Assembly (NCBI GenBank): GCA_009694085.1
Contig: SHVW01000022.1
Location: forward strand, 1-32,218
DNA length: 32,218 bases
Direction of reading: 5' to 3'
Source of the DNA: Alphaproteobacteria bacterium
Lineage (GTDB): Bacteria; Pseudomonadota; Alphaproteobacteria; SHVW01
Below, in pieces: positions 1 to 29,692 of the stretch; position 1 is the stretch's first letter; every line of letters begins with the position of its first letter. A program made the translations under genes and the position numbers. A model generated the notes under the pieces. That model saw nothing but the letters and a program-made list of their open reading frames with translations. It made no database searches and was not told the origin of the DNA.

Positions 1-150
1 GCCAGCCGCGTATCGACCACGCGCGAGACCGTGGCACGCGTTTTCGGCGACCTGGCCCAGCAGGGGATTATTCACCGCGAGGGCGATGCGCTCCGGGTCG
101 GCGATTTGCAGAAATTGGAAGAGATGGTCCTTCAGTTTTGCAGCGAGTAG
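1..150 (+). CDS. Crp/Fnr-family transcriptional regulator, C-terminal HTH portion (truncated by window start)
   Basis: Frame 1 reads ASRVSTTRETVARVFGDLAQQGIIHREGDALRVGDLQKLEEMVLQFCSE* with a Crp-type recognition helix (RETVARV); stop TAG at 148-150. Confidence 0.8.
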   Translation, partial: ASRVSTTRETVARVFGDLAQQGIIHREGDALRVGDLQKLEEMVLQFCSE

Positions 151-248: not shown

Positions 249-264
249 TGTGACGACGGTCACA
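249..264. promoter_or_regulatory. CRP-type palindromic site TGTGA-CGACGG-TCACA
   Basis: Perfect 5-bp arms matching the TGTGA-N6-TCACA consensus, ~100 bp downstream of the Crp/Fnr-family gene. Confidence 0.6.
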
Positions 265-374
265 GCGTTCGACGCGGAAGGGAGCGATGCTGTCCTTGTC
301 GGCGGATCGTTCCCCACGAATGGTTGGCCGGCATTTCGTACCCCGCGTATCGCACAAACTGGGCCGGCCTCTGC

Positions 375-404
375 GCCGGCCCGTATTTCGCCGGCCCGTA
401 TTTC
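375..404. repeat. Tandem direct repeat, two perfect 15-bp units GCCGGCCCGTATTTC
   Basis: Units at 375-389 and 390-404 are identical. The first unit overlaps the right arm of a GC hairpin (361-368/375-382). Confidence 0.85.
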
Positions 405-412
405 GATTGAGG

Positions 413-428
413 TGTGACGACCGTCACC
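413..428. promoter_or_regulatory. CRP-type site TGTGA-CGACCG-TCACC
   Basis: Near-perfect TGTGA-N6-TCACA, second copy of the 249-264 site. A weak -10-like TAGGAT lies at 453-458. Confidence 0.55.
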
Positions 429-461
429 GCGCCGGGGGGGCTCGCGGCACGTTAGGATCGA

Positions 462-545
462 AGCATCGAGAGACCATCACCCTCCTCCTCTCGGACTGGC
501 AACCTCCCCCGGGCCGGAGCCCCCTCCGGCCCGGTTTTCTTTTTG
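462..545 (+). ncRNA. Candidate small RNA with anti-Shine-Dalgarno-like loop and intrinsic terminator
   Basis: No credible ORF. Hairpin CGAGAG(467-472)/CTCTCG(488-493) exposes loop ACCATCACCCTCCTC. A terminator hairpin follows at 509-534 with TTTTCTTTTT. A CRP-type site is centred ~41 bp upstream of the inferred start. Confidence 0.45.
509..544 (+). terminator. Rho-independent terminator
   Basis: CCGGGCCGGAG-CCCC-CTCCGGCCCGG (11-bp perfect stem) followed by TTTTCTTTTT. Confidence 0.8.
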
Positions 546-617: not shown

Positions 618-1481
618 ATGCCCGCGCGCGATCTATCCCCCACGCCGATTCCGAGCCAGGCGCTGCTCGATGCGCTCCAGGTCGAGCTTGGTTTCGAACG
701 TGCCGGCAGCTTGGCGACGTTGCGCGACCGCGCTTCCCGCCGGCTGGAGCGGCAGGAAGCGCGGCGGCAGATCAACCTGGAAAACATCGCCCGGCGCACG
801 CTCGATCGGGTGGCGATCGATGCCGCCGGCGCGATCGATCCGCTTTGGCTCGCGCGCTTCGCCGAATCGGCAGCCGAGATCGAAGACGAATCGCTCCAGG
901 ATCTGTGGTCGCGCGCACTGGCGCAGGAGGCGACGCGACCCGGCGCCATTTCGTTGCGCACCTTGACCGTATTGCGCGACCTGTCCGGCCCTCATGTCTC
1001 GCTTTTCGCCGGATTTGCGCGCTTCGCGATCAACAATTTCGTGATGCGGCTGGAGGAGGCCTTTTTCGAAGGCAAGGGCCTAGCACCGGACGACCTTCTG
1101 CTGTTCGAAGAACTCGGCCTGCTCCGACCGGGTTCGGGCCAGGTCAAGACGTTCAAAAGCCAAAGCGAAGATAGCTATGTCACCCATCTGCTCTACCGCG
1201 ATCAGGTGTTGCGGGTGACGCACGAAACCAACAAAAAACCGCTCGCCCTGCCTTGCCACCGATTGACCGCAGCCGGTGCCGAGTTGGCTGAAATCCTGCC
1301 GGTCGAAGAAGACAGCGACTACATCGTCGGCATGACGGGATGGCTGGCCAAGCGCGGCTATCGTGTGGCGCAGGCGCGTATCAACGCGCGTTCCGATCGC
1401 AACACGGTGACCAGTCATTCCCCGTTCTGCGAACTTTATCCCTATGACCGCCGCCGCCGTTTGAAACGCGCCGGCCGTTAA
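618..1481 (+). CDS. DUF2806-like protein of unknown function
   Basis: Start chosen at MPARDLSP. The core QINLENIARRTLDRV...ALDPLWLARFAESA(E)IEDESLQDLWSRALAQEATRPGAISLRTLTVLRDLS region resembles DUF2806 proteins. Confidence 0.65.
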   Translation: MPARDLSPTPIPSQALLDALQVELGFERAGSLATLRDRASRRLERQEARRQINLENIARRTLDRVAIDAAGAIDPLWLARFAESAAEIEDESLQDLWSRALAQEATRPGAISLRTLTVLRDLSGPHVSLFAGFARFAINNFVMRLEEAFFEGKGLAPDDLLLFEELGLLRPGSGQVKTFKSQSEDSYVTHLLYRDQVLRVTHETNKKPLALPCHRLTAAGAELAEILPVEEDSDYIVGMTGWLAKRGYRVAQARINARSDRNTVTSHSPFCELYPYDRRRRLKRAGR

Positions 1482-1500
1482 TTCAACACGACCGGGGGAC

Positions 1501-2266
1501 TTAAGACCCGCTGGGGCGCGGCGTTCTGTGCGGTTGAGACCGTTCGGCCGGGGCTGATTTCTGCTGGTTTCGCTGCGCGGCCTCGGGGAGAGGCGCGATT
1601 TTGGGTGCTGCCTCGCGCGCGCTGGCCCACACCTTTTCGGTCGTCGCCTTGGCCGCCACGCGCGGCGCCGCCGGTGCGGCCTCCGGTTTCTCGATCGGAG
1701 CCATGACGGTCGGTTGGGCCGGCGTCTTCGGCAAATTGGGCATCATCTCGACCACATTCGACGCGGCCGCGGCCGGCTTCTCTTCCACCGGCAGAGGTGC
1801 CGGCGCCGGCTTCGGCGATTGGTGCCGCTCCAACGGCACCACCACAGGCGTCGGGCGCGCCGGGCGGGGTGCCGGTTCGATCGCCGCCGGCCGCTGGGGC
1901 ACCGGGCCTCGGTTCGGGCTGTTTGATTTCGGCAAGACGAGGCGGCGCAGGCCGTGCCGGCATGGCCTCGACGATCGGGGTCAGCAAGGCCGGCGTCGGC
2001 AATTTGGCGAGCGCCTGCACGGGTTCGCCGGCATTTCCGACCGACTCGCGCGCCTGCTCGAATGCGGTATGGCCGATCTGATTACGCTTGGTTCCGGGTA
2101 GGGCGTTGAACACGGAACTGGCCGTGAGATAATCGACAAGATCTCCAGTTTCGTATGCATTTTTAATGGTTTGATAGACTAAGCTAACCTTTCCCATAAC
2201 CTTATGCGAGGCATCGGACAGGATCCCCATGGCACGACGCTGCATGTCATCGAAGTCGGACGCCAT
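1501..2266 (-). pseudogene. Pro/Ala-rich protein with helical N-terminus, apparently frameshifted
   Basis: N-terminal frame MASDFDDMQRRAMGILSDASHKVMGK...LAEIKQPEPRP. The sensible Pro/Ala-rich continuation (VPQRPAAIEPAPRPARPTPVVVPLERHQ...) is in the neighbouring frame and ends at 1501. Confidence 0.45.
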
Positions 2267-25808: not shown

Positions 25809-27284
25809 TCAACCCGACCAGGGCATCGAGTAGGTCTTGAGGTTGGTGAAGCTCTTCATCGCTTCGAGCACGCCTTCCTTGTAGCCCAGGCCGGAATCCT
25901 TGATGCCGCCGAAGGGTGACATTTCGATGCGGTAGCCCGGCACCTCCCACACATTGACCGTGCCGACATTCAACTCGCTGATGAAGCGCGTGATGTCGTC
26001 GAGCCGGTTGGTGCACACGCCGGAGGACAAGCCATAGGCGGTGGAATTGGACACGCGGATGGCATCGTCGATGTTTTTGACCCTGATCACCGGCACGGCC
26101 GGCCCGAAGGTTTCCTCGCGCACGAGTTCGCAGTCATAGGGCACTTTGTCGACCACCGTCGGCGGGAAGATGGCGCCGCGCTGATCGTTGCCGTGCATCA
26201 GCATCGCGCCCTTGGACACGGCGTCGTCGACCCGGCGCTTGAAGAGCGCGGCCGAACGCTCGTTGATCACGGTGCCCACATCGGTCGCGGGGTCCATGGG
26301 ATCGCCGCATTTCAGCTTCTTCACCTTGGCCAGCACCAGCTTGACGAAGTCGTCGCCCACCTTATCTATGACCAGGATGCGCTTGACCGCCGTGCAGCGC
26401 TGGCCCGAATTTTTGGTGGCGCCGGCCACGGCCAGTTCCGCCGCCTTGTCAAGATCGGCGTCGTCCATGACGATCAGCGGATCGTTGCCGCCCAGTTCCA
26501 GCACGACGCGGCGATAGCCCGCCTTCTCCGCGATGTATTTGCCGACGCGCACGCTGCCGGTGAAGGTGACGAGATCGGCGTTGGAATCGGTGATCATGGC
26601 GTCGCCGATATCGTCGGGTCGGCCGGTGATGATCGATAGCATTTCCGGGGGCAGGCCGGCTTCGTAGAGCAGATCGCACAGCAGCAGCGCCGTCATCGGC
26701 GTCAGCTCCGTCGGCTTGGCGACCATGCGGTTGTTGGTGGCGACCGCCGGGGCGATCTTGTGGGAAATCATGTTGAGGGGATGGTTGAACGGCGTGATCG
26801 CGCTGATCACGCCTTGGAGCGGTTGGCGGAAGGTATGGATGCGCCGAGGCTTGCCCTGGGGCGTCACGTCGCAGGAAAAGGCCTGGCCGTCGTCGAGAAT
26901 CGCCAACTGGCCGGCCAGCGACCACACGTCATAGGCGCGGCCGCATTCGTAGAGCGAATCTTTCAGGCACAGACCCGATTCCGCCGTGATCAGACGGGCG
27001 ATCTTGTCCTTGCGCGCGGCAATCAACTCGGCGGTCTTTTGGCAAATGCGCTGACGGTCGTAGCGCGTCAGCTTGGATTTGAACTTAGCGCCGATCTCGA
27101 ACGCCTCGCGCACCTGGCGCGCCGAGGCGCGCGGCACCGTGCCGACGAGTTCGTTGTTGTAGGGATTGAACACCTCGATCGCGCCATCGACCTCGCCCGC
27201 CACCTCGCGGCCGGCAATGCGCAGAGATTCTTGAATGACCGTGGATTTTGGCGCGGCTTTGAGCGCGCTGGCGGGCGGGTTCAT
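25809..27284 (-). CDS. phnY: Phosphonoacetaldehyde dehydrogenase (aldehyde dehydrogenase family)
   Basis: 491 aa ALDH with [19 protein letters not shown] and [14 protein letters not shown]; 8 nt downstream of phnA, in the phnWA operon. Confidence 0.85.
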
Positions 27285-27292
27285 TTCTGGCC

Positions 27293-28525
27293 TCAGTGAA
27301 CGTGGTTGAGGGCGACGTGGAAAATGTCGAAATTGCGCAGGGGCGCATCGGCGGCGAGGTCATGAACAGGGCGGTTGACGATCAACGGCACGCGCTGTTC
27401 GGACAGCCCGCCATGGGAGCGCAGCGGCGCGTCCAAGCCGGAGAGGTCGTGCTTGGCAGCCGAGGTGCCGACGGCGGCGTTCGTCTTAGTCACGATGACC
27501 AGATCGCCCATGCGATCCTCGGGCAGGCCGAAACGCTGGCAAGCCTCGGCGCGGGTCAGTACAACCTCCACATCGGGCAATAGCTGCGTGCGCCGGGCGA
27601 GCCAGGCCGGGTCGGTACCATCGGGGATATAGGCGGTGGCGAAGGAGCCGAGCGCGCCGTGATGCAGGACATAGGGATCGGTGATGGGCAGAATGACGCG
27701 CGCCTTTCCCTGGCCGAGCCATTCGTCATAGAGGTCTTGCAGATAGACCACGCGGGGTTTGCCGGCATCGTCGGTCTTGGCATTCATGCCGTGATCGGCG
27801 GTCAGCGCGATGGTGCAGCCCATGGCCTCAAGCTTGGCCCAATAGCCATCCATCATGGCGTAGAAGGAATTGGCGCCTGATGTGCCGGGGGCATGCTTGT
27901 GCTGCACGTAATCGGTGGTCGAGAGGTACATGATATCGGGCCGGCGGGTTTCCATCAGCTTGACGCCGGCGGCGAACACGAATTCGGACAAGTCGGCGCT
28001 GTAAACCGAGGGCAGGGGCCGACCGACGAAACCGAGCGCGTCGTCGATGCCGTGCTCGGCCATCGTCGTGCCCTCGGCCTTTTCGGCGGAGAAGCAGATA
28101 CCGGTCATGCCATGGCCGAGCAGCCGGCGCAGCTTGTCCTTGGCGGTGACGGCGGCAAGCTTGGCCCCGGCCCGCGCGAACTCGGCCAGGATGGTGCCGC
28201 AGCGCAGATATTTCGGATCGTTCATCATCACTTCGGCGCCGCTATCGCGGTCGAAGAAGTAATTGCCGCAGATGCCGTGCACGGCGGGCGGCACGCCGGT
28301 GACGATGGACAGGTTGTTGGGGTTGGTGAAGCTGGGCACCACGCAATGGGCGGTGCGCTCGGTGCCGCGCTTCAACATGGCGGCCGTATAGGGCATGGCG
28401 CCCGATTTGACCGCCTCGGTAATATAGGCCGGCTCCGACCCATCGATGCAGACCACGACCAGGGGCTGCTGCGGCCAGGCATAGCGCCGGCCGTTGACGG
28501 TCAGGGGCGCGCGCTTGGTGCTCAT
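27293..28525 (-). CDS. phnA: Phosphonoacetate hydrolase
   Basis: Alkaline phosphatase superfamily: [85 protein letters not shown]...[11 protein letters not shown]. Confidence 0.9.
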
Positions 28526-28537
28526 ATCGCGTTCCCC

Positions 28538-29692
28538 CTAGGCCGCGCGCTTGGCGGGGCCGGTCTGGGTGACGCCCATGTCCTTGAGGCAGGCCTTGAT
28601 CGCTTCCAACACACCCTTCATCTGGGCTTCATGCACTTGCCCGATGCAGCCGATGCGGAAGCTGTCGGCGCGCGTGAGCTTGCCCGGATAGATGACGTAA
28701 CCCTGGGCGGACAGGCTGTCGTAGAAGGTTTCGAAATGAAAGCGCGGATCGGCCGGCTGGTGGAAGGTGACGATGATCGGCGCCTGCAAATGGTCGGGCA
28801 GCAGGGTTTCGAAGCCAAGCGCACGCATACCATCGACCAGGATTTTGCAGTTGCCCGCATAACGCGCGTGCCGGCCTTTGACGCCGCCTTCCGCCGCGTG
28901 CTGATCGAGCGCGGCATCGAACGCGGCGAGCACATGGGTCGGCGGCGTGAAGCGCCATTGCTGGCCCGATTTTTCCATGTAGCTGCGCTGATCGAACAGG
29001 TCGAGGACCAGGGCATGGGCGTTGCCCGCGGTCTTCTCCAGCGCTGCTGTGCGGCAGATGACCAGGCCGATGCCGGGCACGCCCTCGATGCATTTGTTGG
29101 ACGAGGCGGCGAGCGCGTCGAATCTGATGCGCCGCGCGTCGATCTCGATAGCCCCAAAGGCGCTCATGGAATCGACGAGGAGGGCGCGACCCTGCTTTTC
29201 CACCACAGCCGCGATCTCGGCGAGCGGGTTGAGAATGCCCGAGGTGGTCTCGCAATGGATGACGGCGACATGGGTGATGGCGGGATCGGCCTGGAGCGCC
29301 GCCTCAACCTGCTGGGCCGTGGGCGCCACGTCTTCGGCCGTTTCGATCACGCTATGGGCGCGGCCGATGAGCTGGCAGATCTTGACGATGCGCTGGCCAT
29401 AGGCGCCGTTGACTAGGATCAGCAGCTTGCCCTGGCGCGGCACGAAGGTGCCGATCATGGCCTCGACCGCGAAGGTGCCGCTGCCCTGGAGCGGCACCGC
29501 GACATGGCTGCCCTGGCCATGGATCAGCGCAACCAGCTTGGTGCGCACGCCCCGGGTCAATTCGCGGAAATCGGTATCGCGCGAGCCCCAATCCCGCAGC
29601 ATGGCCGCCCGGGTCTCTTTGGAGGTCGTCAGGGGGCCGGGGGTGAGCAGGAAAATGTCCCTAGGGCGGGCGGCGGGGCGGGCGGCGGTCAT
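28538..29692 (-). CDS. phnW: 2-aminoethylphosphonate--pyruvate transaminase
   Basis: FLLTPGPLTTSKETRAAMLRDWGSRDTDFRELTRGVRTKLVALIHGQGSHVAVPLQGSGTFAVEAMIGTFVP...ALAASSNKCIEGVPGIGLVICR. Confidence 0.95.
   Translation of the reverse strand: MTAARPAARPRDIFLLTPGPLTTSKETRAAMLRDWGSRDTDFRELTRGVRTKLVALIHGQGSHVAVPLQGSGTFAVEAMIGTFVPRQGKLLILVNGAYGQRIVKICQLIGRAHSVIETAEDVAPTAQQVEAALQADPAITHVAVIHCETTSGILNPLAEIAAVVEKQGRALLVDSMSAFGAIEIDARRIRFDALAASSNKCIEGVPGIGLVICRTAALEKTAGNAHALVLDLFDQRSYMEKSGQQWRFTPPTHVLAAFDAALDQHAAEGGVKGRHARYAGNCKILVDGMRALGFETLLPDHLQAPIIVTFHQPADPRFHFETFYDSLSAQGYVIYPGKLTRADSFRIGCIGQVHEAQMKGVLEAIKACLKDMGVTQTGPAKRAA

Follow-up and report, generated by a model that had tools for sequence, protein, structure and literature searches.

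The enterobacterial RNA CyaR is activated by CRP and, to our knowledge, is not encoded beside crp. It bears an anti-Shine-Dalgarno (anti-SD) loop (PMC3927594). VcdRP of Vibrio cholerae is a CRP-controlled RNA that combines a 29-aa open reading frame (ORF) with a C-run near its 3' end, which pairs with translation starts (PMC8672173). RNAs of the alpha-r8 group (alpha-r8/MmgR/SisA-D; RF00519 'suhB') pair with mRNAs through a UUUCCUCCCU core (PMC12559287). The alpha-r14 RNA NfeR1 folds into three hairpins, each of them carrying CCUCCUCCC, and uses this motif to block translation of ntrB (PMC10746234). The literature that we searched held no report matching a CRP-linked small RNA of Alphaproteobacteria.

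The window analysed here is 32,218 nt long and comprises the whole of contig C119 in an alphaproteobacterial assembly of 3.08 Mb and 141 contigs. An initial annotation had proposed, at positions 405-545, a small RNA that is controlled by CRP, displays an anti-SD sequence and is tied to the Crp protein encoded next to it. Comparative evidence strongly supports this proposal. Its promoter geometry was wrong, however, and its extent covered only the second of two modules, the upstream half (249-392) having been overlooked. Comparison between genomes shows a linkage of Crp gene, CRP site, predicted class II -10 element, putative short transcript and terminator, and in the interval 249-545 a conserved RNA gene, which has its place directly 3' of a Crp gene of the cAMP-receptor type, is probably present in tandem duplicate (Table 1).

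Table 1. Features of the crp-proximal part of the window
Feature	Position	Strand	Basis or remark
Crp/Fnr-family regulator, C-terminal 49 aa (helix-turn-helix)	1-150	+	Pfam HTH_Crp_2 E 1.7e-9, Crp E 8.3e-6
Perfect CRP consensus site TGTGACGACGGTCACA	249-264	+	Consensus match; upstream module
-10-like GATGCT at class II distance (+37 from site start)	286-291	+	Predicted start ~298
Putative upstream module RNA: GTCGGCGG start, CAAACT-GGGCCGG linker, GC-rich hairpin 361-384	298-392	+	
Second CRP site TGTGACGACCGTCACC	413-428	+	One mismatch to TGTGAN6TCACA
-10 hexamer TAGGAT, then 6 nt, then ATCGA	453-458	+	Predicted +1 = A465
Candidate small RNA, ~80 nt	465-544	+	Fold, covariance-model and comparative evidence
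Weak 6-bp hairpin 467-472/488-493, loop 473-487 (15 nt)	467-493	+	Minimum free energy (MFE) fold
Anti-SD motif CCTCCTCCTCTC, counterpart of family CCTCCTCTCC	481-492	+	Family motif position weight matrix (PWM)
Second C-run ACCTCCCCC, linker 5' of terminator	502-510	+	Sequence
Intrinsic terminator, 11-bp stem 509-534 and U-tract TTTTCTTTTT 535-544	509-544	+	
DUF2806 gene, separate downstream gene outside the RNA unit	618-1481	+	Pfam PF10987 E 9.2e-29

Because the contig begins within the gene, crp is visible only as its last 49 codons. The signature ASRVSTTRETVARV in this fragment is also present in the Crp protein of genome G217, and these 49 residues suggest that the two are orthologous. The G217 protein (P0003) consists of a cNMP_binding and an HTH_Crp_2 domain, which makes control by a cyclic nucleotide plausible. 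As in the crp-linked RNA family described below, the CRP site of the window follows a Crp gene of the VSTTRETVAR type. The upstream site, one of three perfect consensus sites in the assembly, begins 98 nt past the crp stop; in homologues this distance ranges from 6 to 131 nt, with one site at 262.

With P0003 as the query for ranking Crp homologues, a CRP site was found within 300 nt past the stop in 18 of the 30 best homologues, against 0.2 expected from shuffles, and in three of the next 38; several homologues had no CRP site. Nineteen homologues were scanned for TANNNT at offsets of 30-45 from the site. The hexamer stood at +37 in ten, at +36 and +42 in one each, and at no other offset of this range. 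The peak at +37 corresponds to class II spacing, and a start of the ATCG type usually comes next. Eight orthologues have a CCTCC-type motif and a GGCCGG terminator in common, and the terminator stem shows paired changes at three positions. The orthologues repeatedly carry CCTCC(T/C)TCC, unpaired and some 25 nt 5' of the terminator. The arrangement of Crp gene, CRP site, short RNA and terminator recurs in many distantly related Alphaproteobacteria, and the conserved locus is composed of Crp gene, CRP site, class II -10, ATCG start, CCTCC motif and GGCCGG terminator. Conservation in relatives that share the neighbourhood, the check named in the initial annotation, holds for the organisation of the locus, but not for the particular hairpin and loop sequence of the window.

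A single-sequence covariance model of window positions 462-545 (R1) was searched in 386 alphaproteobacterial genomes. Its match in G217 (locus L068) is located 3' of the Crp gene, whose product likewise has the ASRVSTTRETVARV signature; other R1 matches mostly had the appearance of bare terminators. When 59 relatives were searched with the region by BLASTN, nothing significant but only short stretches came up; the best outside the window's own genome (25 nt, contig C83 of G008) sits downstream of the G008 Crp homologue. Both searches were blind, and each led to a place directly 3' of a Crp/Fnr gene of the type seen in the window. G001, the only congener compared, lacks this DNA, the DUF2806 gene and a clear Crp orthologue, and no syntenic relatives were found via DUF2806, the phasin-like gene or DUF502. 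At 1238-1420 of locus L068 there is also an array of roughly 11 repeats of 17 bp each (CCCGTGTGACGGCGATC); it resembles a series of CRP half-sites and ends directly at the CRP site that precedes the RNA and looks functional.

The orthologous loci differ in what they encode. RNA-only forms with a CCTCC(T/C)TCCAAACGC end (CCTCC(T/C)TCC...ACGC) and a GGCCGG terminator are found in G217, G384, G115, G080, G184 and G008, and RNA-only forms with a shorter motif in G200, G088 and G370. G306 and G017 combine an ORF with a tail, as do G377, G297 and G208 with weaker tails, and G211, G106 and G380 have the ORF only. The predicted peptides of G306 (contig C323, L081) and G017 (contig C89, L085) are about 32 aa long, end in PSELWIGxPF and have their coding sequence 3' of the crp-linked CRP site and 5' of the anti-SD tail; a search of Pfam and NCBIfam with the G306 peptide gave no match.

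Small ORFs with a plausible ribosome-binding site occupy the same transcript position in G306, G017, G106, G380, G377, G297 and G208, an ORF is readable in G211 as well, and the tail is absent from G211, G106 and G380. The unit beside crp might accordingly be read as basically a CRP-activated mRNA for a hydrophobic peptide of about 30 aa, with RNA-only forms as remnants and the C-rich part of minor importance. We consider this unlikely, since at least nine orthologues without the ORF still have the site, the CCTCC motif and the terminator, and G306 and G017 carry both the ORF and full-length tails matching R2, a family model built without the window sequence. As a tentative but serious possibility, the locus beside crp may be ancient and previously undescribed: the Crp-activated transcript would originally have encoded a membrane peptide of about 30 aa and a 3' anti-SD segment, individual lineages would have retained either of these or the two together, and the bacterium of the window would have duplicated the RNA-only form in tandem, followed by complementary losses. 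Such a locus would be the alphaproteobacterial counterpart of CRP riboregulation of the CyaR/Spot 42 type, adjoining its own activator, and the natural series of peptide-only, peptide-plus-RNA and RNA-only forms would lend itself to studying the gain or loss of either half of a dual-function RNA.

Turning to the conserved RNA gene as it appears in the window, the second module contains the elements of the family in order, with an ATCGAG start at 465, the motif at 481-492 and GGGCCGG at 511. The CRP-type site that the initial annotation had centred at about 420.5, the TAGGAT hexamer, the second C-rich stretch and the 11-bp terminator stem with its T-run are all present where it placed them. Its start near 462, which would put the site at -41.5, is disfavoured because it leaves only 4 nt after the -10 element. 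A start at A465 is likelier from the TAGGAT-N6-ATCG spacing and the ATCG starts of homologues, and the centre of the site then lies at -44.5, 3 bp beyond the class II distance; seven consecutive Gs stand in the spacer. Folding of the RNA gives a stability above that of shuffled sequences (z -3.35), nearly all of it due to the terminator. The small hairpin proposed earlier does appear in the MFE fold; taken alone, it is no more stable than shuffled sequences (z -0.07, 85/200). By the PWM of the family motif, positions 481 and 484 rank third and fourth among 64,418 window positions, and the terminator (509-544) is the top R2 match in the window (20.4 bits, E 4.6e-4). R2 aligns only the terminator half and not the motif half of the window RNA, and the family assignment therefore rests separately on position, start, motif and terminator. 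The 9-mer of the second C-run also occurs in the G384 and G115 RNAs, but on the opposite side of the motif. Aligned to the orthologues, the second module fits G217 best (z 4.2, best among eight orthologues tried), and its CRP site is identical to the crp-downstream site of G008 at 21 of 22 nt.

The interval had been described as free of ORFs. This is loosely true, as the ORFs listed mechanically across it have no support, and by our own reading the window RNA contains no small ORF with a stop that would make it a dual-function RNA like VcdRP. Other copies of CCCTCCTCCTC in G000 and G001 were rejected as candidates; the four forward-strand copies listed outside the window locus look coding by eye. 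Directly 3' of the U-tract, positions 545-563 form a perfect inverted repeat (GCAAGGC-CTTCG-GCCTTGC) without a U-tract of its own.

GC-rich genomes commonly hold C-rich motifs and GGCCGG terminators, no close relative is available for comparison and the 5' hairpin is weak. One may ask whether chance alone, without any RNA gene, brought together three elements each common by itself in such a genome: a palindrome resembling a CRP site, a terminator of high GC content and a run rich in C. Three observations speak against this, namely the location, which adjoins a Crp gene of the appropriate type, the start of the ATCG kind and the linkage seen in homologues (18 of 30 against 0.2). We give chance assembly little credence.

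The tandem arrangement that we favour includes the upstream module, in which the class II distance is kept, though its hexamer is weak; the same GATGCT stands at the identical distance in G200. The -10 distance of the second module is 3 bp longer and its hexamer is better; the well-spaced promoter is that of the module without an anti-SD motif. The upstream module has no CCTCC motif and no good U-tract (broken). Its start resembles TGTCGGCGG of G008, and its CAAACT-GGGCCGG linker and terminator likewise resemble those of G008, the RNA end of which was its best match among eight orthologues tried (z 3.9, or 4.4 when the site is included). R2 matched this module at 360-388 with 15.9 bits. In a repeat analysis, the sites at 249 and 413 shared 89% over 19 nt and the GC-rich hairpins at 361-389 and 511-539 shared 72%. 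Judged by these likenesses, the interval 249-545 looks like a tandem duplication with complementary losses between the modules, and transcription might also read through and give an RNA spanning 298-544. That the terminator should instead be an attenuator in a DUF2806 leader, with a transcript from the 249 site re-folding so that the G-rich stretch 427-445 sequesters a terminator arm, is very improbable, for although DUF2806 starts 73 nt past the U-tract and the predicted fold of the 298-545 RNA pairs the 427-446 region with the 3' part of the terminator, GC-rich RNA easily re-folds, the RNA unit adjoins crp in genomes in which DUF2806 was not found, and no candidate ligand-binding domain or leader peptide was seen.

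If the tandem RNA gene is functional, Crp would activate it and the product would be an RNA of about 80 nt from 465, possibly accompanied by a longer read-through RNA from about 298. The RNA would expose its CCUCCUCCUC stretch, which could block translation of trans-encoded mRNAs by pairing with their G/A-rich Shine-Dalgarno regions, probably with the help of Hfq. By analogy with described anti-SD RNAs, mRNAs that have a strong SD sequence would be expected to be translationally repressed by the candidate RNA of the window. It may thereby act as the repressing arm of the cAMP-CRP response, possibly feeding back on crp. Duplex energies between the RNA and the crp start region were -1 to -18 kcal/mol, values that stand without a control, and feedback on crp's own start region is only an idea. 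A locus of this kind would provide a post-transcriptional arm for a cAMP-CRP-type regulon in Alphaproteobacteria, and the defined unit of Crp gene, CRP site and anti-SD RNA would be open to testing in cultured relatives.

Among described RNAs, CyaR is alike by description, being CRP-activated with an anti-SD-like loop that blocks ribosome binding. VcdRP shares the combination of ORF and C-rich pairing element with the G306 and G017 versions, but it is repressed by CRP, the window version has no ORF, and we claim no sequence relation to this gammaproteobacterial RNA. The Rfam search suggested in the initial annotation gave no match in the window at gathering cut-offs, and the crp-linked RNA family has no counterpart in Rfam 15; what emerged was a resemblance to alpha-r8/MmgR below threshold. 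The likeness consists of a weak hairpin, a single-stranded CU-rich anti-SD stretch and a GC-rich terminator. RF00519 scores of family tails were 17-29 bits against a gathering cut-off of 41 bits (best orthologue tails 24.5-29.3), and when the whole assembly was searched, the window locus had no match to RF00519 with E<=1. The single-stranded 10-mer UUUCCUCCCU of alpha-r8 is absent; the window has CCCUCCUCCUCUC and the crp-linked family CCUCCUCUCC. Moreover, alpha-r8 adjoins an N-formylglutamate amidohydrolase gene, whereas the family described here adjoins crp, and above-cut-off alpha-r8 copies, present in six of 12 genomes tested including G001, were never at crp-linked sites. With alpha-r14/NfeR1 and the other CCUCCUCCC RNAs (RF02344), the window RNA shares a CCUCC anti-SD motif in unpaired regions, but it is formed of one weak hairpin and a terminator and scores 15.7 bits against a cut-off of 58.8. 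Weak Rfam matches to Cupriavidus-1, SR6 and Scr5676 were judged to be chance and rejected as identities. A different, highly conserved terminator-proximal sequence, TTGAAGACACCCCACCATTACCCAACGCCTTGGGGCCGG, was encountered in loci L156, L157, L158, L160 and L163, with a tRNA-like sequence just upstream in L156, L157 and L160; it had no Rfam RNA-family match in the scanned loci L156, L158 and L163 and looks like an undescribed small RNA or leader.

Beyond the interval, the gene order is DUF2806, a phasin-like gene, bactofilin, DUF502, recG and mfd, the last two assigned by inspection. DUF2806 has no match in G001 or in most relatives. The phasin-like gene (1478-2266, minus strand) has no Pfam match and its name is our own. 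A link to phasin via MmgR was dropped, as by our reading no GGAGG-type SD precedes the nearby phasin-like start. This gene shows an apparent frameshift near 1890-1935: its two halves occupy different frames, the C-terminal one, rich in Pro and Ala, being found in the overlapping ORF 1501-1935. Further downstream (25809-29692, minus strand), the window carries what by inspection is an aminoethylphosphonate degradation-type cluster, with an aldehyde dehydrogenase, an alkaline-phosphatase-like hydrolase, an aminoethylphosphonate transaminase-like gene and a divergent LysR gene.
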